From the NCBI GenBank assembly GCA_025457965.1, contig JALOTJ010000054.1, positions 1 through 36,275 on the forward strand: a stretch of 36,275 nt of DNA. Reading direction: 5' to 3'. Below are positions 14,490-31,391 of the stretch, piece after piece. The stretch is from Spirochaetota bacterium. Its GTDB lineage: Bacteria; Spirochaetota; UBA4802; UBA5368. The notes under the pieces were generated by a model that ran no database searches, was not told the origin of the DNA, and was given only the letters and a program-made list of their open reading frames with translations. Position 1 is the first letter of the stretch, and the number at the start of each line of letters is the position of its first letter. A program made the translations under genes and the position numbers.

Positions 14490-15110
14490 ATGGAAAATTC
14501 TGCAATAACCGTAACGGCACAATCCATATCGAAATCCTTCGGCCCCGCAAGGATTTTTGAAGGCATTTCCTTCTCACTCGTTACGGGTGAGTCGATTGCC
14601 GTCACCGGGCCCAACGGTTCGGGAAAATCAACACTGTGTGAGATCGTCGCCGGCATCCGTCGACCAACGGGCGGATCGATTGAGTATACTCTTAACCGGC
14701 AACCGCTGTGCGGGGACGGGCTGTTAAGCGTCACAGGAATCGCGAGCCCCAGGATCAATCCCTACGAAGCGCTGACGGGCATGGAAAACGTCGAATTCGC
14801 CGCACGGGCGCGTGGAATAGACATGTCTTCGACCCTGCCGTTGTTTGAATCGTTCGGACTCCACCGTCATCGCGGCAAGTCCCTCCGTCATTACTCCTCG
14901 GGCATGCGGCAGCGCCTTAAACTGATTCTCGCGGTGCTGCACCATCCCGCCCTGCTCATACTCGACGAACCGGGATCGAACCTCGATGCCGAGGGCAGAA
15001 GGCAGTTCGCCGCGTATATCGACTCGCTCCGTACACGCACCGCCATCATCATCGCCACCAACGACATGGAAGAGGCCCGCCTCTGCTGTGGGGCGGTGAG
15101 CCTTGCTTAA
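14490..15110 (+). CDS. ccmA: Cytochrome c maturation ABC transporter ATPase CcmA
   Basis: A 206-residue ABC ATPase of the CcmAB(CD) haem-handling complex. Its ATP hydrolysis releases haem-loaded CcmE from CcmCD. It has Walker A GPNGSGKS, the ABC signature YSSGMRQRL, Walker B LLILDEP and a switch region. The length matches CcmA. It overlaps ccmB by 8 bases, so translation is coupled. A generic ABC ATPase assignment is ruled out by the ccmBCDE genes that follow. Confidence 0.93.
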   Translation: MENSAITVTAQSISKSFGPARIFEGISFSLVTGESIAVTGPNGSGKSTLCEIVAGIRRPTGGSIEYTLNRQPLCGDGLLSVTGIASPRINPYEALTGMENVEFAARARGIDMSSTLPLFESFGLHRHRGKSLRHYSSGMRQRLKLILAVLHHPALLILDEPGSNLDAEGRRQFAAYIDSLRTRTAIIIATNDMEEARLCCGAVSLA

Positions 15111-15759
15111 CGCGATACTAAGCAACATCGTCAAGGACTTCCGCATCGAGTTCAGGCGTCGCTTCGCGGTGAACATCGCGCTGTCGTTCGCTGCAATAAC
15201 GACGCTCGCGGTAAGCCTCACCGCGGGGGGCGTGCGATTGGGCTCGCAGACGCAGGCCATGCTCTTCTGGATCATCCTGTTTTTCAGCGCCATGAACGGC
15301 CTGGCGCATGTCTTCACGCGCGAGGAGGAGGAAGGCACCGCGCTTTTTCTCAGGGTCACCTCCCCGGCCGCAGCGGTGTACACCGCGAAACTCGCTTTCA
15401 ACATCGCCGTCATTTTCATCATCGCCGCCGTAATAAGCCCGCTCTACGTGTTTTTTCTGAACGTCGACCTCGTCGCCCCGTCCGCGTTCGCGGCCGCGGT
15501 CTGCGCCGGTTCACTCGCCATCGCGTCCTCGGCGACGGTGCTCGCCGCCATCGTCGCCAGGGCGGGAGGGAGGGGCTCGCTCTTTACGATCATCTCGTTC
15601 CCCGTGGTGCTTCCCCCGCTCTGGGTGGCCGTCGGGGCCACCCGGGCCTCGATCTCAGGCAGCGCGTCGACCGAGGGCGTGATTTTTTTACTTGCATTTT
15701 CGGGTGCGCTCGTCGCTGTATCGTATATGCTTTTCGGGCACATCTGGATCGAAGAATAA
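15103..15759 (+). CDS. ccmB: Haem exporter permease subunit CcmB
   Basis: A 218-residue membrane protein with about six hydrophobic segments, partner of CcmA. The N-terminus (LSNIVKDFRIEFRRRF) and the FSAMNGLAHVFTREEEEGTALFLR loop are typical of CcmB, and the length equals the E. coli protein (220). The start is TTG at 15103, the first start after an in-frame TGA, and it overlaps the ccmA stop. It is part of ccmABCDEF. Confidence 0.92.
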   Translation: MLNAILSNIVKDFRIEFRRRFAVNIALSFAAITTLAVSLTAGGVRLGSQTQAMLFWIILFFSAMNGLAHVFTREEEEGTALFLRVTSPAAAVYTAKLAFNIAVIFIIAAVISPLYVFFLNVDLVAPSAFAAAVCAGSLAIASSATVLAAIVARAGGRGSLFTIISFPVVLPPLWVAVGATRASISGSASTEGVIFLLAFSGALVAVSYMLFGHIWIEE

Positions 15760-15779: not shown

Positions 15780-16445
15780 ATGTTGATCACGCGACTTGTT
15801 TATATTTTCATGCCCACCGCCGTCATAATGGCATTCTGCTACGCGCCAGCGGCCGCGGTCCTGGGCGAGACGAGCAGGCTGCTCTACTTCCATGTGCCGC
15901 TCGCATGGATTTCGGTCATGGCCTTTGCCGTGTCAGGTGTTGCGGCGATGCTGTTTCTGGCTGATAAGAAAAGCCGCTTTACCTACATGGAAGACTCTTT
16001 CCACAATTCCGCATCGCTCGGCACACTCACCGCCGTGCTTGCCACCGCAAGCGGATCGGTCTGGGCGAAGCTCATGTGGGGGAGCTACTGGAACTGGGAC
16101 CCGCGCCAGACATCGATCGTCATTCTGCTCCTTATCTATTCAGCCTATTTCAGCCTCCGCTCCGCGCTCGAGGGCAAGCCCGCGCGGGGGCGGCTCTCCG
16201 CGGCCTACCTTATCATCGCAATGACCGCCATGCCGTTTTTCGTCTTCGTCGTGCCGCGCGTCTTCCCGTCGCTGCACCCCGACCCCGTCATCAATCCGGA
16301 CATGAAAATACATCTCGAGATCGAGATGAAGCTTACGCTGCTGATCTCGGTCGTCGCCTTTTCCCTGCTCTACTTTTACCTCCTTGAAATCCTGAACAGG
16401 CTGTCAAGAATTCGTAACGCCGTGGAGGTTCAACACCATGAATAA
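15780..16445 (+). CDS. ccmC: Cytochrome c maturation protein CcmC
   Basis: A 221-residue six-TM haem-handling protein that loads haem onto CcmE. It has the Trp-rich periplasmic WGSYWNWDPRQTS (WWD domain) flanked by the two haem-ligand histidines in YFHVP and SLHPDP. The length is as expected. Its end overlaps the start of ccmD by 8 bases. Confidence 0.94.
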   Translation: MLITRLVYIFMPTAVIMAFCYAPAAAVLGETSRLLYFHVPLAWISVMAFAVSGVAAMLFLADKKSRFTYMEDSFHNSASLGTLTAVLATASGSVWAKLMWGSYWNWDPRQTSIVILLLIYSAYFSLRSALEGKPARGRLSAAYLIIAMTAMPFFVFVVPRVFPSLHPDPVINPDMKIHLEIEMKLTLLISVVAFSLLYFYLLEILNRLSRIRNAVEVQHHE

Positions 16446-16707
16446 ACGACTGCGCCCGGCCCTTTCGGCACTTACTCTCGCGTTCCTGCTCGGGCTCACC
16501 GCCTTGACCGCTTCCGGCATAACGTCGGCCATGGCATATGCCGCCGAAACGGTATCGGAGGAGGCCGCGCCGTCCGATACCGCGGCCGACAGCGCTCCTT
16601 CACGCGTAATGTGGGTGGTGCTCTTCGTCTGGCTCGGCATTGGAGCCTATCTTTTCAAAATCGATCGGAGCATCGCCCGGCTGGAGAGAAAGATCGATGA
16701 GCGCTAA
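16438..16707 (+). CDS. ccmD: CcmD family protein
   Basis: An 89-residue small membrane protein in the CcmD position between ccmC and ccmE. An N-terminal hydrophobic segment (about 9-33), a Glu/Ala/Ser-rich linker and a C-terminal TM helix are followed by the basic tail YLFKIDRSIARLERKIDER, as in CcmD family proteins. A good site (GGAGG) precedes the ATG. CcmD bridges CcmC and CcmE for release of haem-CcmE. It is longer than E. coli CcmD (69) because of the N-terminal segment. Confidence 0.85.
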   Translation: MNKRLRPALSALTLAFLLGLTALTASGITSAMAYAAETVSEEAAPSDTAADSAPSRVMWVVLFVWLGIGAYLFKIDRSIARLERKIDER

Positions 16708-17071
16708 AAGGATCGTCGGCATACTCATCGTCGCCGCCTGCGTCTCGGTCGCCGCCTTCTCAATGCGCGGCATGCTTACGCCCTATGTATCGTTCGCCGA
16801 CGCGATGAAGTCCGGCGAATATGTCCAGATCATCGGCATGCGTCCGAAGTCGGCCCCGGTCGAAAACATGAAGGGTAGCTTCGCGTTCACGCTGCGCGAT
16901 GAGAATGGAGCGTCGCTGCGGGTGGTCCACAGGGGCGTCAGGCCTCAGAACTTCGAGCATGCCGACCGAATCGTCGCGCTCGGCACCTATGACCCACGGG
17001 GCGGCATTTTCGCTGCAGACAGGCTGCTGGTCAAGTGTCCATCGAAATACACGGGAGAGAAACAGCAATGA
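16697..17071 (+). CDS. ccmE: Haem chaperone CcmE, Cys-type (CxxxY)
   Basis: A 124-residue periplasmic OB-fold haem chaperone with one N-terminal TM anchor (about 6-22). The haem-attaching motif reads KCPSKYTGE: Cys114 takes the place of the usual histidine and Tyr118 is kept (CxxxY instead of HxxxY). Cys-type CcmE proteins are known from sulfate reducers and archaea, where the variant pathway is called System I* and usually lacks ccmH. The same is seen here, with no ccmGHI nearby. The start at 16697 (MSAKR), preceded by GGAGAG, is preferred over the in-frame start at 16640. It overlaps ccmD and ccmF. Confidence 0.92.
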   Translation: MSAKRIVGILIVAACVSVAAFSMRGMLTPYVSFADAMKSGEYVQIIGMRPKSAPVENMKGSFAFTLRDENGASLRVVHRGVRPQNFEHADRIVALGTYDPRGGIFAADRLLVKCPSKYTGEKQQ

Positions 17072-17637
17072 ACACCGGCACAGTGCTTATCCTGGTCTCG
17101 CTCGTCCTTTCGCTCGTATCGCTCTATTTTCTGGCGCGGGGCGCGGCGGGTAACGTTTTTGCGAAAATCACCGCACGGCGGATATTCTATCTATCCGGCA
17201 TTTCAATCACCTTCGCCGTAATCCTGCTTTTCTTCTCCTTCATCAGTCACAGCTTTCAGTTCAACTACGTATACAGCTATTCCTCGCGCGAACTGCCGCT
17301 TGCGTACCTTGTCGCGGGATTCTGGGCCGGGCAGGAGGGAACTTTTCTTCTGTGGGTCTTCATACTGTACGTCCTCGGTTTTTTCATAATTCGGTCGAAT
17401 GACCGTGACGAGTGCCTGGTGGTATCGATCGTCACCATCAGCCAGATTTTTCTTCTGCTCGTGCTCGTAATCTACAGTCCCTTCCGCTATGTCTGGCAGG
17501 CGCATCCGGAACAGTTCGCCGTCGGCTCGATCCCGCCGGACGGTGCGGGGCTCAATCCCCTTCTGCAGCCGCGCTGCTGCGAAACGATTTTTCAACCTGG
17601 ATCGTCAGGAGCTACCGATGGACGCTCTTCACCATGA
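17068..17637 (+). pseudogene. ccmF: CcmF N-terminal fragment (frameshifted)
   Basis: The ATG overlaps the ccmE stop (ATGA) with GGAGAG upstream. The frame reads as a normal CcmF/NrfE haem lyase for about 167 residues: several TM helices, GFWAGQEGTFLLWVFI, then IPPDGAGLNPLLQ. After the CTGCAG at 17563-17568 the frame becomes nonsense and stops at 17637. In intact CcmF this point is followed by the xPWxxxHPPxLFxGY haem-binding loop and a TM helix, which are missing. CcmF transfers haem from CcmE to apocytochrome. Confidence 0.85.
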
Positions 17638-19166
17638 CCTCGCTGGGCATCGGCATATTCCTGGGCGGATACTGGGCGTACAAGGTCCTCGGATGGGGCG
17701 GTTACTGGGGGTGGGACCCGGTGGAAAACTCATCGCTGATCCCCTGGATCGTGCTGGTCGCGCTCATGCACGGGATGATCGTGCAGCGGCGCAGGGGCGC
17801 GCTCGTGCGCACGAACATCGCGCTGGCGCTCCTCTCGTTCATCCTGGTGTTTTACAGCACCTTCCTCACCCGAAGCGGCGTGCTCTCGGATTTTTCGGTA
17901 CACTCCTTCTCCGACCTCGGCCTTTCGCGGCACCTTATATTTTTCATGCTGTTCTATGTCGTCATTTCGGTATTTCTATTCGCGAAGCGCTTCGGAGACA
18001 TGCGTTCGGCGAAACTCGGCGAATCGGCGGTCGCCTGGGACACCCTCGTGGCCTACGGCATCATCACGCTCTGCCTCTACTCCTTCCTGATCCTGGCCGG
18101 AACGTCGATGCCGATCGTCTCATCGATCTTCTCGAACCCCTTCTCCCTGCAGCCCGGCTACTATAACGGCATTTCGGTCCCCATGGGCCTGCTTATCCTG
18201 GGAACCATCGGGCTTGCCGGGATATTCCAGTTTCAGAAAAAGCCATCCATATGGAAGCTCGCGATGACCGGTGTTGCCGTGGTTGTTCTCGCCCTGCTTT
18301 TCAATGTCAACCACACCGCGAAGCCCGCCGCCTATGCCTTTTCCGCGGCCGCTTTCTTCGTGGCGGTCTGGGGCGTCATGGACCTGCTTACATTCAAACC
18401 CGCGGCCGTCCTCTCTTCGCGGCTCGCGCATATCGGCGTCGCGGTGATGGTGCTCGGGATCGTCGCCTCGTCACTGCACTCGCAGACCGAACACCGCGAA
18501 CTGCCGCTGGGCAAATACACGGTCATCGAATCGGCCGCGCTCACCTTCAGGGGCCTTACCGGTGCCGAAAAATCCGCCCTCGCCTTTACCTTCGCACGGG
18601 GCCGTTCGGTCAAAGAGATCGAAACCCCGTATTACATGGATGGGCGAACGCACTCGCTGTATCGCGAGCCGTACATCAGCTATGGATTCGCTCACGACGT
18701 CTACATCTCGCCGGTGGAATACCGCTCGGGTCTGGATTCGCTGACCAGGTTCGTCCTCGAGAAGGGTTCGAGCGTCGAGTCACAGGGGATCAAGATCACC
18801 TTCACGGGCTTCGATGTCGACCGGCAGCACATGATGGCGGGCGGTGACATGAAGCTCTTCGCTAAACTCACGCTCGAGCGCGGCCCCCACTCCGCATCGA
18901 TACGGCCCGGCCTTGAGCTCCGGGGCGGGGACAGCCGCGAATCAATCGCGGCAAGGATTCCCTTTACGGGACAGCAGGTGCGCCTCCTCGACTTCAACGT
19001 GAGCGACGGAACGGTCTACCTGTTCGTGGAGGCGCCGAAAGGAGCGGCGGTTCCGCCGGATTTGGCGGTCGTCGAAGTGTCGTTCAAGCGGCTCATCTGG
19101 TTCGTATGGCTGGGGACGGTGTTCATAGCGCTGGGCGGGGCCTTCGCCATACGCCGTGCGGGTTGA
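17569..19166 (+). pseudogene. ccmF: CcmF C-terminal fragment (out of frame with the N-terminal part)
   Basis: From the junction the second frame reads AALLRNDFSTWIVRSYRW and then the WWD haem-handling domain (GWGGYWGWDPVENSSLIPW). FLTRSGVLSDFSVHSF, many TM helices and a C-terminal periplasmic domain (about residue 330 onward of this part) follow, ending in a last TM and IRRAG. It has no good start of its own; ATG 17635 would cut into TM helices. Joined to the first part it gives nearly 700 residues, about 25 short of continuity. About 75-80 bases seem deleted, with a count of 3n+1. Without the HPP loop the protein should not work unless the lesion is an assembly error. Confidence 0.85.
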
Positions 19167-23939: not shown

Positions 23940-24148
23940 GTTGCCCGGGCGGGAAACGGCGGCAATCTTCACCGACGGGGCGGGTCGCCGGACAGTTCCT
24001 TCCGCACGTCCGGGCCGAGTCAGGCGCGAGAGTTTGTGCGAACCCGGTATGATGGAAAAATTCCCCCGCCGAAGGCGGAGGAAACCCGGCGTCCCCGTAA
24101 ATTGCAAATCCTCTGAAGATGTAAAAATCTAAGAGGTCGGAAGGTAAC
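23940..24148 (+). promoter_or_regulatory. Structured 5' leader of the ech operon
   Basis: This 209-base non-coding stretch holds at least three stem-loops. The first is GCCGGAC (23987-23993) with GTCCGG (24008-24013). The second is a 10-bp stem with one mismatch around GAA (24061-24083, CCGCC/GGCGG core). The third, CCTCT-AGAT/ATCT-AGAGG (24110-24136), sits directly before the GGAAGG ribosome-binding site of echA. The third could control translation. I cannot match it to a known riboswitch; cobalamin, c-di-GMP, tmRNA and SRP RNA motifs were looked for and not seen. Confidence 0.4.
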
Positions 24149-26035
24149 GTGGAAACCATCATCTTTCTGATAATCTTCCCCGCCGCGATTTCGCTCGTGC
24201 TGCTATCAATCCCAGTTAAATCGGTGCGCAGGCTTATTGCGGTAATCGCGAACATCGCCCTCATCGCCGGGACGATCCACCTTTTGTACGGATCGGCCGG
24301 GGAGACGATCCGCTACGAACTCGAGAACGTCTGGATCGAACGCGCGATGCTGACGCTCGAGGTGACGCTGTCAATCTACATACTCTATATGGGCATTCGA
24401 TTCAGGCGCTATCTGGTCGTTTTTTTCACCCTGCTTCAGCTCGCCCTTCTTGTCCATTTTGAAGCGTTCGCGATACCGGCGGTACCCGTGGCGCACAACC
24501 TTTTCGTGGACAACTTCTCCATCATCCTGGCCCTCATAATCGGCATCATCGGAAGTTTTATTTGTCTCTATGCCATAGGCTACATCGAGGAATACCACGA
24601 GCGGCACAAGGAATCCGAGGACAACAGGAGGTTCTTTTTCTTCCTGATGTACCTGTTCCTCTCGGCCATGTTCGGGATTGTGTTTTCCAACAACCTCAAG
24701 TGGATCTATTTTTTCTGGGAGATCACCACAATCTGCTCATTTCTGCTCATCAAGTACCACGAGGACGAGGAATCCATCGATAGCGCCTTCTCGGCGCTCA
24801 CCATAAACCTCATGGGAGGGCTCGCATTCGCCGCGGGGATCTCGTACGCCGGCATATACGCGGGAACACTGGAGCTCGACCGGCTCATCGCCGAAGGCGG
24901 GGCCTATGCCGTGATTCCCGCTGCGCTGATCGCTTTCGCGGGACTGGCCAAGTCGGCGCAGCTTCCCTTCTCGTCATGGCTCACCAAGGCCATGGTGGCG
25001 CCGACGCCGGTATCGGCCCTTTTACATTCGAGCACCATGGTGAAGGCCGGCGTGTATATCATCATCAAGGTCGCCCCGGCGCTGAAAGGCACCCTGGCGG
25101 CCGCCATGCTCTCGTACATCGGCGGGCTCACCTTTCTCGTCGCCTCTTTCATCGCGATATCGCAGAGCAACGCCAAAAAGGTTCTGGCATACTCGACCAT
25201 CGCGAACCTCGGGCTGGTCGTCGCCTGCGCGGGCATCGGCACCAACGAGGCGATCTGGAGCGCCATCCTCCTCATCGTTTTTCACGCCGTTGCCAAATCG
25301 CTCATGTTCCTGTGTGTCGGGCTCATCGAAAACAAGCTGAGCAGCAAGGAGATCGAGAACATGGACTTCCTGATCATGGAGATGCCAAAGGTGTCCGCCG
25401 CCATGATCATCGGAATATCGGGCATGTTTCTCGCGCCCTTCGGCATGCTCATCAGCAAGTGGGCCACGCTCAAGGCCTTTATCGATTTCAACCCCGTAAT
25501 GGCGATCATCCTCGCCTACGGCAGCGCCGCCACGCTCTTCTTCTGGACCAAGTGGATGGGCAAGATCATCACCATCAAGTACGGGCTGAAAAACCGCGAG
25601 AAAGTGGTGAGCCCCTGGGAATGGACGACGCTAGCGGTGCTCTCGTTCATGACGATCGGAGTGTGCATCATCTTTCCGCTACTGTCTTCGGCGCTCATAG
25701 AGCCGTACATCATCGAGCTCTTCGGGGTAAGCCCCTCGATGGACAGGTTCAATATAATCATCATAATGATCATCATGCTGGGGCTGCTCACGATCCTGCC
25801 GATCGCGCTGATGTACTACGCCTGGCTCGACAAGGACTACAAGCGCGTCGGCACCTATCTCGGGGGCGCGAATGTCGACAACGTCCGCTTTCTCGGATCG
25901 CTCGGCGCGCAGAGAACGGCCGATATCCGCAACTATTACCTCGACGGCTTTTTCAGCGAGAAGAAACTTTACAATTATGGATTGGTAACGGCCGTGTTCC
26001 TCGTTATCCTTATGCTCGGGGTGGTGGTCATATGA
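24149..26035 (+). CDS. echA: Energy-converting hydrogenase subunit EchA (antiporter-like)
   Basis: A 628-residue polytopic membrane protein of the NuoL/MrpD/HyfB antiporter-like family, the ion-translocating arm of a group 4 [NiFe] hydrogenase. Hallmarks are FFFWEITTICSFLLIKYHED, the conserved AKSAQLPFSSWL segment with TPVSALLHSSTMVKAGVY, and lysines within TM helices. EchA proteins are about 640 residues. The GTG start has GGAAGG eight bases upstream. Its stop overlaps echB (ATGA). The ion (H+ or Na+) cannot be told from sequence. Confidence 0.92.
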   Translation: METIIFLIIFPAAISLVLLSIPVKSVRRLIAVIANIALIAGTIHLLYGSAGETIRYELENVWIERAMLTLEVTLSIYILYMGIRFRRYLVVFFTLLQLALLVHFEAFAIPAVPVAHNLFVDNFSIILALIIGIIGSFICLYAIGYIEEYHERHKESEDNRRFFFFLMYLFLSAMFGIVFSNNLKWIYFFWEITTICSFLLIKYHEDEESIDSAFSALTINLMGGLAFAAGISYAGIYAGTLELDRLIAEGGAYAVIPAALIAFAGLAKSAQLPFSSWLTKAMVAPTPVSALLHSSTMVKAGVYIIIKVAPALKGTLAAAMLSYIGGLTFLVASFIAISQSNAKKVLAYSTIANLGLVVACAGIGTNEAIWSAILLIVFHAVAKSLMFLCVGLIENKLSSKEIENMDFLIMEMPKVSAAMIIGISGMFLAPFGMLISKWATLKAFIDFNPVMAIILAYGSAATLFFWTKWMGKIITIKYGLKNREKVVSPWEWTTLAVLSFMTIGVCIIFPLLSSALIEPYIIELFGVSPSMDRFNIIIIMIIMLGLLTILPIALMYYAWLDKDYKRVGTYLGGANVDNVRFLGSLGAQRTADIRNYYLDGFFSEKKLYNYGLVTAVFLVILMLGVVVI

Positions 26036-26919
26036 CGCCGATCGACTATTTCATCCACCTGGACAACATCTATCTGAAGGCCGTCATCTACGTTGTGCTC
26101 GCCCCCATACTCGGGGGACTGCTCGCCGGTGTCGACCGGAAGATAAGCGCGCGCATGCAGGGCAGGATCGGCCCCCCGATCCTCCAGCCCTTTTACGACG
26201 TCTTCAAGCTTTTCAGCAAGGAAAAGATCATCGTCAATAAATTCCAGAACTTCAACGTGATCCTCTTCTTCGTCTTCATGGTCTTCACGGGTTCCCTCTT
26301 TTTCCTGGGGGGGGATCTGCTCCTGGTGATCTTCGCGCTCACGCTCGCCGGCGTCTTCTTCGCGCTTGCCGGGTTTTCGGTCAACTCGCCATACTGTCAC
26401 ATCGGGGCCGAACGCGAGCTCATCCAGATGATGTCCTACGATCCCATGATCATACTGGTGGCCGTGGGCATGTACCAGGTAACCGGCACGTTCCGGGTCG
26501 ACGCGATCGCGATGTACGATGGGCCGCTTATCCTCTACCTTCCCGGTGTCTTTCTGGGGTACCTGCACGTGCTTACCATCAAGCTTCGCAAGTCTCCCTT
26601 TGATCTTGCGATGTCGGCGCATGCCCACCAGGAGCTGGTGAGCGGACTCAAAACCGAGTTCTCGGGCACCACGCTGGCCCTGATCGAGATCGGGCACTGG
26701 TACGAAAATGTACTGCTTCTGGGGATCATCTACCTGTTTTTCGCTTTCAACTCCTTCCTCGGGGTCGCGGCGATGCTTGTGCTGTATTTTTTCGAGATCA
26801 TCATCGACAACACCTACGCGCGCTTCAAATGGGAGTTGACGTTCAAGAGCACATGGCTCGTAACGGCGCTCTTCGGCGCGGCCAACATTATAATCCTGTA
26901 TTACGCGATGCAGCCGTAA
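26032..26919 (+). CDS. echB: Energy-converting hydrogenase subunit EchB (NuoH-like)
   Basis: A 295-residue membrane subunit of the NuoH/HyfC/EchB family that links the hydrophilic and membrane arms. It has the NuoH signature ARMQGRIGPPILQPFYDVFK, a charged FSVNSPYCHIGAERELIQM loop and about eight TM helices. The ATG at 26032 overlaps the echA stop. A much longer reading of this frame, back to 24976, is a shadow of echA. Confidence 0.93.
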   Translation: MTPIDYFIHLDNIYLKAVIYVVLAPILGGLLAGVDRKISARMQGRIGPPILQPFYDVFKLFSKEKIIVNKFQNFNVILFFVFMVFTGSLFFLGGDLLLVIFALTLAGVFFALAGFSVNSPYCHIGAERELIQMMSYDPMIILVAVGMYQVTGTFRVDAIAMYDGPLILYLPGVFLGYLHVLTIKLRKSPFDLAMSAHAHQELVSGLKTEFSGTTLALIEIGHWYENVLLLGIIYLFFAFNSFLGVAAMLVLYFFEIIIDNTYARFKWELTFKSTWLVTALFGAANIIILYYAMQP

Positions 26920-26944
26920 GTCGGCGGGCATAGGAGAAACCGGC

Positions 26945-27427
26945 ATGTTTTTTAAAAAATCTCCATGGATCATCCACTACGACGCCACCAGTTGCAACGG
27001 TTGCGATATCGAGGTGATCGCGAGCCTCACCCCGATGTACGATTTGGAGCGCTTCGGCATCATCAACACCGGAAACCCCAAACACGCGGACATTTTCGTC
27101 GTCACCGGATCGGTGAACGAGAGCAGCCACCAGGTCGTAAAAAACATCTACGACCAGATGCCCAACCCGAAAGTGGTCGTCGCGGTCGGCATCTGCGCGA
27201 CCTCGGGCGGAATATTCAGGGAGTGCTATAATGTACTCGGCGGCGTCGACACGGTTATACCCGTCGATGTGTATGTACCCGGGTGTGCCGCCCGGCCGGA
27301 GTCGATTATCGACGGCATAATCAAGGCACTCGACATTCTTGAAAGGCGGCTTGTGGAGTTCAGGAAAGCGAAAACAGAGGCGCGCCGCCAGGAGAAAAAG
27401 CTGAGGAGGTACCACCTGAATGATTGA
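26945..27427 (+). CDS. echC: Energy-converting hydrogenase small subunit EchC (NuoB-like)
   Basis: A 160-residue [NiFe] hydrogenase small subunit carrying the proximal [4Fe-4S] cluster. The ligands are Cys17 and Cys20 (SCNGC), Cys84 (GICATSGG) and Cys114 (PGCAARPE). This is the N2-like pattern of group 4 small subunits, with no further clusters. A basic helical tail follows. The end overlaps echD by 8 bases. Confidence 0.94.
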   Translation: MFFKKSPWIIHYDATSCNGCDIEVIASLTPMYDLERFGIINTGNPKHADIFVVTGSVNESSHQVVKNIYDQMPNPKVVVAVGICATSGGIFRECYNVLGGVDTVIPVDVYVPGCAARPESIIDGIIKALDILERRLVEFRKAKTEARRQEKKLRRYHLND

Positions 27428-27797
27428 GGAACAGACGACCATCGCGGTGGGCAAGGACGAGCTGCTAGGGACCGTGTCCGATTTCCACTCGCAGGGGTAC
27501 CGGCTTGTACAGATCTGCTGCACCGCGCTGGGCGATACGATCGAGATACATTACTCTTTCGATAAGGACTACCGCTTCACCAACCTGCGCCTCACCGTAA
27601 AGCCCGGAGAGGAGATACAGAGCGTAAGCATCATCTACTGGAGCGCCTTCGCCTACGAAAATGAAATGAGCGAGCTCTTCGGCGTCAAAATCAGGAATAT
27701 CGTCGTCGATTACAAGGGCCACTTTTACCGCACAGCGGTGGCGACCCCGTTTGTCGCAACCGAAACGGACGAGAAAAACGACACGGGAAAGGAATAG
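27420..27797 (+). CDS. echD: Energy-converting hydrogenase subunit EchD (NuoC-like)
   Basis: A 125-residue protein of the NuoC/30-kDa family, structural partner of the large subunit. The C-terminal signature WSAFAYENEMSELFGVKI matches the YExEMxDxFGI motif of this family. The length equals EchD (about 118). It overlaps echC, and echE follows after 9 bases. Confidence 0.9.
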   Translation: MIEEQTTIAVGKDELLGTVSDFHSQGYRLVQICCTALGDTIEIHYSFDKDYRFTNLRLTVKPGEEIQSVSIIYWSAFAYENEMSELFGVKIRNIVVDYKGHFYRTAVATPFVATETDEKNDTGKE

Positions 27798-27806
27798 GCA
27801 CGCTTA

Positions 27807-28886
27807 ATGTCCCAGAGAAACGTCATACCATTCGGCCCGCAGCACCCGGTGCTCCCCGAGCCGATCCACCTCGATCTCGTGACCGAGGATGAAACCGTCG
27901 TCGAGGCCATTCCGTCCATCGGTTTCGTCCACCGGGGGCTCGAAAAGCTTGTCGAGAAAAAGGACTATCAGGACTTCGTCTACGTGGCCGAGCGCATTTG
28001 CGGTATCTGCAGCTTCATGCACGGAATGACCTACTGCCAGGCGGTAGAGGAGGTCATGGGTATCGCCGTGCCCGAACGCGCGCTGTACCTGCGCACCGTC
28101 TGGGCGGAGCTCTCGCGCGTGCACAGCCATCTCATGTGGCTGGGGCTGGCGGCGGACGCCTTCGGCTTCGAGAGCCTTTTCATGAACTGCTGGAAGCTCC
28201 GCGAGGGCATCCTCGACATCATCGAAGCGACCACCGGCGGACGCGTGATATTCGGAAGCTGTAAAATCGGCGGAGTGAGGCGCGATATCGACGGCGACAC
28301 CATGAAGGGCATCGTGGAAAAACTCGACAGGATTGCCGCCGAGATCAGGCACACCACCGACGTGTTTCTGAACGATTACTCGGTCCAGCACCGTCTTAAA
28401 GAGGTCGGCGTTATGTCCGGTGAGGAGGCTTACGCCCTCGGCACTGTGGGGCCCGTCCTCCGCGCGAGCGGCGTGGCCATGGACGCCAGGAAGATCGGCT
28501 ACGCCGCCTACCGGAATCTGAAGTTCGAACCGGTTGTCGAAAAGTCCGGCGACTGCCATGCGCGCTGCCGTGTCCGCGTTCGTGAGATATTCCAATCGAT
28601 CGACCTGATCGGCCAGGCGGCACGGAAGATGCCGGAAGGAGAAATCGCGGTCAAGGTGACGGGCGCCCCGAGTGGAGAATACTTCAGCCGCGTGGAGCAG
28701 CCCCGCGGCGAGGTGATCTACTACGTCAAGGCGAACGGAACGAAGAACCTGCAACGCTTCCGCGTCAGGACGCCTACCTTCGCAAACCTGCCGGCCATGG
28801 TAAGGATGCTCAAAGGGGCGAGCATCGCCGACGTGCCGAACATCATCCTTACCGTGGATCCCTGTATAAGCTGTATCGAGCGATAG
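27807..28886 (+). CDS. echE: Energy-converting [NiFe] hydrogenase large subunit EchE
   Basis: A 359-residue NuoD-like large subunit carrying the active site. All four nickel ligands are present: Cys65/Cys68 in RICGIC and Cys353/Cys356 in the terminal DPCISC. It is therefore a real hydrogenase and not a complex I NuoD. The protein ends IER right after the last cysteine, so there is no C-terminal extension for a maturation protease, as reported for CooH-type enzymes. The length matches EchE (about 358). The active site needs HypA-F, none of which are in this window. Confidence 0.95.
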   Translation: MSQRNVIPFGPQHPVLPEPIHLDLVTEDETVVEAIPSIGFVHRGLEKLVEKKDYQDFVYVAERICGICSFMHGMTYCQAVEEVMGIAVPERALYLRTVWAELSRVHSHLMWLGLAADAFGFESLFMNCWKLREGILDIIEATTGGRVIFGSCKIGGVRRDIDGDTMKGIVEKLDRIAAEIRHTTDVFLNDYSVQHRLKEVGVMSGEEAYALGTVGPVLRASGVAMDARKIGYAAYRNLKFEPVVEKSGDCHARCRVRVREIFQSIDLIGQAARKMPEGEIAVKVTGAPSGEYFSRVEQPRGEVIYYVKANGTKNLQRFRVRTPTFANLPAMVRMLKGASIADVPNIILTVDPCISCIER

Positions 28887-28895
28887 AGGTGCAAG

Positions 28896-29288
28896 ATGGG
28901 ATTTTTATCGATGACCAGAAACATCGCGCAGAACCTCTTCGAGGGGCCGTCGACGCGCCGCTATCCGGCCGTTAAGCGCTACTACGAACCTAAATCGCGC
29001 GGCATGATCGGCATCGATATCGAGGCGTGCATCTTCTGCGGCCTGTGCTCGAAACGCTGCCCTACCGGAGCGCTCACCGTGGCAAAGGACCGGAAGGAAT
29101 GGGAGATCGACCGGTTGCGCTGCATTTTCTGCGGATACTGCGTGGAGGTGTGCCCCAAGAAGTGCCTTTCCATGGCGAACCACTATTCGCCCTGCGTCAC
29201 GGATCGCGGGGACGCGATTCACCTCGAAAAGCAGGCGCCCAAAGGCACGACGGAACAACCAGTGGAAGAGAAACTGGAGAAGGAGTAG
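28896..29288 (+). CDS. echF: Energy-converting hydrogenase ferredoxin-like subunit EchF (NuoI-like)
   Basis: A 130-residue polyferredoxin with two [4Fe-4S] motifs: Cys45-48-51-55 followed by Pro, and Cys76-79-82-86 followed by Pro. They pass electrons from soluble ferredoxin to EchC. The N-terminus (NLFEGPSTRRYPAVKRYYEP) is typical of NuoI/EchF, and the Glu/Lys-rich tail is variable. A GAGG site precedes the ATG. It ends 10 bases from the convergent guaA stop. Confidence 0.94.
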   Translation: MGFLSMTRNIAQNLFEGPSTRRYPAVKRYYEPKSRGMIGIDIEACIFCGLCSKRCPTGALTVAKDRKEWEIDRLRCIFCGYCVEVCPKKCLSMANHYSPCVTDRGDAIHLEKQAPKGTTEQPVEEKLEKE

Positions 29289-29298
29289 ACCCTACCGC

Positions 29299-30864
29299 CT
29301 ATTCCCACTCTATGGTCGAGGGAGGCTTCGAGGAGATGTCCAACACTACGCGGTTTATCCCGCGCACCTCGTTGATGATCCTGTTGGAAATCTTTCGCAT
29401 CACCTCTTCCGGAAGGTACGCCCAGTCGGCGGTCATGGCATCGACCGAGGTGACGCCGCGCAGGGCGATGACGTTTTCGTAGGTGCGCTTGTCTCCCATT
29501 ACACCGACCGATTTGACCGGCAGAAATACCGCGAACATCTGCCAGAGCTTGCGGTAAAGCCCCGCCGCACGGATCTCCTCTATCAGTATGGCGTCCGCCT
29601 CCTGGAGCGTCGCCACGCGCTCTCTGGTGACCTCGCCGACAATGCGGATGGCGAGTCCCGGACCGGGGAACGGATGGCGGTGGACCAGTTCGTCCGCCAG
29701 TCCCAACTCCTTCCCGAGAACCCGCACCTCGTCCTTGAAGAGCTCCTTGAGCGGCTCGATGACCCTGCCCGACTTGATGAGCTTCAGGACCTCGGGTACG
29801 CGGTTGTGATGACTCTTGATGGTATCTGACGGACCTTTCGTGGAAACCGACTCGATTACGTCGGGATAGAGCGTTCCCTGGGCCAGGAAATCGAATCGGC
29901 CGATTTTCCGGGCCTCTTCCATGAATACCCTGATGAACTCCCGGCCGATGATCTGGCGCTTTTTTTCCGGGTTCCCGACGCCTTTGAGCTTTCGCAAGAA
30001 GCGGTTCGAGGCGTCAACATAAATCAGGTTGAGCTTAAGATGGCGTTTGAACCGCTCGATCACCTGTTCGGCCTCGTTCTTTCTTAATACACCGTTGTTG
30101 ACGAAAACGCAGAACAGCCTTTTACCGATGGCCCGGTCCAGGAGCACCGCGGTCACCGTGGAATCCACGCCGCCGGAGAGTCCCAAAAGAACCGTCCCGT
30201 CCCCGACCTCGGCACGGATCGCTTCGACCGACGAGGCGATGAACGATTTCATGTTCCAGGAGGGCTTGAGCCCACATATATCGAACAGAAAGTTTCTCAA
30301 GATCGCACTGCCGTGAACCGTGTGATACACCTCGGGATGGAACTGTACTCCGTATATCCTCTTCTCGCTGTTCTCGATCGCGGCGGTCTCGGCATTGACC
30401 GAACTCGCGACAACCCTGAAACCCGGAGGCGGCGTGGTGACCTTGTCCCCGTGGCTCATCCAGACGGTTTGGCTCTTTTTCAGGCCCTTGAAGAGCTTCG
30501 ACTTTTCGCGTATCGTTATTTCAGCACGCCCGTATTCCTTGTGACTGGACCCCTTAATTTTACCTTTGAAGGCGTCAACCACCACGTACAGGCCGTAACA
30601 GATTCCAAGCACCGGTACGCCCAGCCCGAAGATTTCCGCACCTGTGCGCGGGGCGTTCTTTTCGTACAGCGACGACGGCCCGCCCGACAGGATAATCGCC
30701 GACGGTTTCTCCCTCCTGATTTCCTCGAACGATATACGGTAGGGTACGATTTCCGCATAGACGTTCAGCTCGCGGATTCGACGCGCGATGAGTTGCGTGT
30801 ACTGGGACCCGAAATCCAGTATCATCACCTTCTCCGTGGGGATCCCCGGTAAATGCTCGATCAT
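29299..30864 (-). CDS. guaA: GMP synthase (glutamine-hydrolysing)
   Basis: A 521-residue two-domain enzyme converting XMP to GMP. The class I glutamine amidotransferase domain has nucleophile Cys89 in LGICYG and the His/Glu pair in QFHPE. The ATP pyrophosphatase domain has the PP-loop GLSGGVDST, and the dimerisation domain ends in the usual PPSTIEWE. After CYG the usual MQ reads LY (ICYGLYVVV), a small departure from the oxyanion-hole consensus. The start overlaps the purE stop (TAATG). Confidence 0.97.
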
Positions 30865-31391
30865 TACTTTGCCTCTAAACCCTTTATATATTCCCTGTAC
30901 CCGATCTTCTGCAGCCTCTCGTTTTTTCCGATGACTCCTTCCGCCATTTTCTCCCGGTAGGAATCCAGTTTCGTCTCCAGCGACGAGTCGGTTGCCGCCA
31001 GCAGCGCTATCGCGAACAGGGCCGCATTGGCCCCGCCGGCGCCGCCGGCGGGCATGGTGGCCACGGGGATGCCCGCGGGCATCTGTAAAATTGAGAATAT
31101 CGAATCAAGTCCGCCCCCGATTGAAGTCTCTATGGGAACCCCTATTACGGGAAGCGTGGTAAACGCGGCGACCACACCGGGGAGATGCGCGGCGCCGCCC
31201 GCCACGGCGATAACGGCCTTAACCCCGCGGGTGCGCAGCGACGCGGCCCACTCTTTGGTTTTCTCCGGAGTGCGATGCGCGGAGGAAACTACAACCTCGA
31301 ACGAAACGCCAAATTCTTCGAGCAGATCGAAACAGCTTTTTACCTTGGGGAGATCGGAATCGCTTCCCAGTACCACTGAAACAAGCGGCAT
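30864..31391 (-). CDS. purE: N5-carboxyaminoimidazole ribonucleotide mutase, PurE class I
   Basis: A 175-residue PurE converting N5-CAIR to CAIR in purine synthesis. Signatures are [20 protein letters not shown], the [11 protein letters not shown] loop and [21 protein letters not shown] strong GAGGAGG site precedes the ATG. It is translationally coupled to guaA, so the pair feeds guanine nucleotide synthesis. No purK follows. Confidence 0.96.

Follow-up and report, generated by a model that had tools for sequence, protein, structure and literature searches.

A 79-base, frame-breaking gap in ccmF within the cytochrome c maturation operon of an uncultured spirochaete genome bin

The ccm operon and the gap in ccmF

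The window (the whole stretch of DNA analysed, 36,275 nucleotides) is contig C82 of an uncultured Spirochaetota genome bin, G000, which comprises 3.23 Mb in 174 contigs and is 77.57% complete. It carries a ccmABCDEF operon in which ccmF is directly preceded by ccmA, ccmB, ccmC, a ccmD-like gene and ccmE. The features of this operon are as follows, with amino acid identities given relative to G004, the nearest congener.

14490–15110, + strand: ccmA, ABC ATPase, intact (Pfam ABC_tran, 73.7 bits; 87% amino acid identity)
15103–15759, + strand: ccmB, intact (Pfam CcmB, 56.8 bits; 93% amino acid identity)
15780–16445, + strand: ccmC, intact and bearing a WWD motif of its own (Pfam Cytochrom_C_asm, 91.8 bits)
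16438–16707, + strand: ccmD-like gene, intact here and deleted in G004 (CcmD_alt, 22.1 bits, just under the 23.5 cut-off; orthologues in G003, G001, G006 and G005)
16697–17071, + strand: ccmE, intact (Pfam CcmE, 49.5 bits)
17068–17637, + strand: 5' part of ccmF, with about 166 correct residues (17068–17567; 92% amino acid identity), then 23 off-frame residues and a TGA at 17635–17637
17567–17568, + strand: ccmF junction, where 79 bases are missing relative to all three congeners compared (DNA alignment)
17568–19166, + strand: 3' part of ccmF in a shifted frame, with WWD, P-His2 (VHSF), both transmembrane histidines and the C-terminal domain (92% amino acid identity)

Apart from ccmF, the ccm genes are open and either overlap or nearly abut one another, in agreement with the initial annotation, which had read them as intact and tightly coupled. 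A survey of ten genomes of the group (this bin and nine relatives) found a CcmH-family protein in none of them, despite the System I ccmABCDEF operon. Because CcmH is missing from all ten, its absence here is not specific to the ccmF break, and we dropped a link between the two.

CcmF is jointly encoded by two open reading frames, 17035–17637 (with an ATG at 17068) and 17412–19166, which overlap in different frames. We compared ccmF with that of the congeners G004, G003 and G001 by ungapped anchoring of both flanks and found one gap, precisely 79 bases long (3 × 26 + 1), between 17567 and 17568. Each of the three congeners has the 79 extra bases and reads ccmF as one continuous frame, whereas here two frames meet at 17567/17568. 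A DNA alignment of the window to G004, at about 87–90% identity, contained no further gap in ccmF; indels within other genes cancel out, and the rest fall between genes or at gene edges. The missing stretch, as encoded in G004, is DPWMMAHPPVLFIGYAAATIIFAYAI, and its loss takes away about 26 residues: the DPWMxxHPP loop, including an invariant histidine, and most of the membrane helix that follows. The HPP motif is present in 29/29 aligned relatives and absent here, and ten columns of the missing segment are at least 95% conserved among those relatives. The initial annotation, working from this sequence, had placed a frame switch at 17568, had judged about 25 residues with a PWxxxHPP loop to be gone, and had expected a missing length of 3n+1 between 76 and 79 bases; the comparison with close relatives that it proposed bears out all of this and sets the length at 79.

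What remains of CcmF

The 3' part of ccmF is recognizable in its own right, matching PF01578 (Cytochrom_C_asm) at 67.6 bits and the CcmF_C domain PF16327 at 51.5 bits (cut-off 28.7). Its shifted frame keeps the WWD motif (WGGYWGWDPVENSSLIPW) and the other three haem-ligand histidines, that is, the one in VHSF and two in the membrane. The family, the WWD motif, the VHSF loop and the membrane histidines are shared with CcmF of System I, for example Thermus thermophilus CcmF (PDB 6ZMQ), as is the placement in a ccmABCDEF operon. An intact congener CcmF matches the 6ZMQ structure over 520 residues, missing stretch included. The gene in the window differs from such a System I CcmF in lacking the 79 bases, in its broken frame and in the loss of the HPP-loop histidine. 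Based on its position before WWD and the 6ZMQ alignment, we assign this periplasmic histidine of the HPP loop as the putative P-His1 (PMC10663686). P-His1 has been reported to be needed for CcmF function (PMC10746174), and the HPP-loop histidine is absent from both parts of the gene.

If present in cells, the deletion would remove the periplasmic HPP loop, whose histidine would help to ligate the haem during its attachment, would take most of one core membrane helix with it, and would leave the two halves in different frames. The haem lyase made from such a gene would not function, leaving NrfHA and other c-type cytochromes unmatured in the cells concerned. The plain reading of the sequence is thus that ccmF function has probably been lost.

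Deletion in the organism or slip in the assembly

The initial annotation had left two explanations standing: either CcmF was lost, or the assembly omitted some 79 bases. Both are still live. We place a real deletion slightly ahead: by a little better than an even chance, this is an ordinary System I operon in which ccmF, in at least some of the population sampled, recently lost 79 bases and with them its continuous frame. The clean difference from three congeners with open frames and the HPP motif in all 29 relatives favour this reading. Several observations suggest that the deletion is present in the DNA and not only in the assembly. First, the junction has a microhomology of only 0–1 base, which argues against simple repeat collapse, and we rejected repeat collapse as the origin of the gap since no repeat lies there. 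A k-mer assembler would presumably have needed reads spanning the junction. Second, among about 114 coding pairs from sampled contigs of the bin and G004, ccmF was the sole long gene found divided between two stop-free frames that abut. This screen took open reading frames of at least 100 residues, so that genes as short as ccmD would be missed, and its other candidates were, as judged by their pattern, mostly short antisense open reading frames or start-site differences. Since ccmF stood alone in this respect, errors do not seem to be widespread in the assembly, and we set aside generally poor assembly quality, which was not seen in the sampled contigs.

A raised N/S in ccmF on the branch of this bin (27/53 versus 11/54 on that of G004; Fisher p = 0.024, uncorrected) also speaks for a real deletion, although the excess is not significant in comparison with the branch's other genes (p = 0.11). 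To the extent that it survives, ccmF has hardly decayed. Apart from the deletion, it carries one private conservative change (L to I) at sites that are at least 85% conserved, and its dN/dS is 0.10–0.12. The break is therefore recent, or present in some cells only, or an assembly slip. The client points the same way in time: this genome has an open nrfA, immediately preceded by an NrfH-like open reading frame with four CXXCH motifs, and nrfA shows a dN/dS of 0.056 versus G004 with no replacement excess on this branch. Such strong purifying selection indicates that the need for c-type cytochromes persisted until very recently.

An assembly or gap-closing slip, by which the organism's ccmF is intact and the contig lost 79 bases, has a somewhat less than even chance of being correct. 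It would account for the undecayed flanks of ccmF, the intact neighboring ccm genes and the strong conservation of nrfA (dN/dS 0.056), and the source is a single, fragmented bin that is 77.6% complete. Much of what looks like pseudogenes in assemblies is artefact, assembly errors being a documented source, and the resulting inflation of pseudogene counts is a known effect (PMC11017572). The present case resembles the frameshift pseudogenes of single assemblies in that one frame-breaking indel interrupts an otherwise conserved gene in one assembly; it differs in that 79 bases without flanking repeats are missing, rather than one base or part of a homopolymer. Against a slip stand the junction, where no repeat would explain a collapse, and the sampled contigs, which show no other comparable break.

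A deletion in the same operon was found in a relative. In G004, an independent, frame-breaking deletion of 221 bases has removed nearly all of ccmD (G004:C16, about 24925–25070; window counterpart 16453–16681). It lies exactly between 8-base direct repeats, CGCCCGGC, both copies of which the window still has, one at 16453 and the other 221 bases on, at 16674. This makes real erosion of the operon credible and suggests that the ccm operon is under weakened constraint. The occurrence of two deletions in one operon is suggestive only, as the screen for broken genes, with its 100-residue minimum, would miss genes the size of ccmD. It is unlikely that the genus is losing its ccm operon piecemeal through independent deletions in ccmF (here) and ccmD (G004) while nrfHA is still conserved; if so, the loss of c-type respiration would have been caught in the act, or NrfA would be matured without CcmD or a full CcmF. 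We also considered G002, which lacks ccmC, ccmE and ccmF, as a precedent for a congener without ccm genes. Its contig (G002:C230:1-32) stops 31 bases upstream of the operon's neighbor gene, so the missing ccm genes are probably an assembly gap; the contig edge makes their absence uninformative, and we dropped this precedent.

Other routes to cytochrome maturation

To look for a substitute lyase, as the initial annotation had proposed, we searched the genome for a second ccmF or NrfE and found none in the 77.6% complete bin, which has one CcmF locus only. ResB (System II) was found in 0/10 genomes of the group, this bin included, and a search of a plasmid collection returned only distant ccmF/ccsA matches. 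Maturation by another lyase, raised in the initial annotation, was thus not borne out. That CcmF is truly lost and that a further haem lyase, encoded where the genome is unassembled, compensates is very improbable: the incompleteness of the bin leaves room for such a gene, but ResB is lacking across the group and the congeners G001 and G004, both 95% complete, have a single full-length ccmF each and no ResB.

In plant mitochondria, CcmF is split into CcmFN and CcmFC. These resemble the window's gene in dividing one CcmF between two reading frames and differ from it in keeping the haem-ligand histidines, one of which is deleted here. An ATG at 17634, in frame with the long, open 3' part, shares bases with the TGA that ends the 5' part (ATGA, 17634–17637), and the 3' piece with its WWD could in principle be made by translational coupling at this overlap and assemble with the 5' piece as a working split CcmF. 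We consider this highly unlikely, since the HPP-loop histidine and most of the core helix are in neither piece, P-His1 is reported to be necessary (PMC10746174), and close relatives have a conserved, ordinary Met codon at this place (MTSLGIG), so that the overlap is probably due to chance.

If the deletion is real, a spirochaete with nrfHA (nitrite ammonification) has just lost the making of c-type cytochromes, at least in some cells, and any respiration read from its nrfHA would be misannotated. Should the gap instead stem from assembly, the case urges caution in inferring loss of function from a single genome bin. Either way the case is ordinary in kind and no new mechanism is needed.

Finally, outside the operon, positions 24125–31202 of the window align unbroken to G003. 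The genes at 24149–28886, named from their translations alone as putative membrane and NiFe-hydrogenase-like or complex-I-like genes, are also found in G003 but are absent together from G004, which lacks them as a unit of about 5.3 kb.
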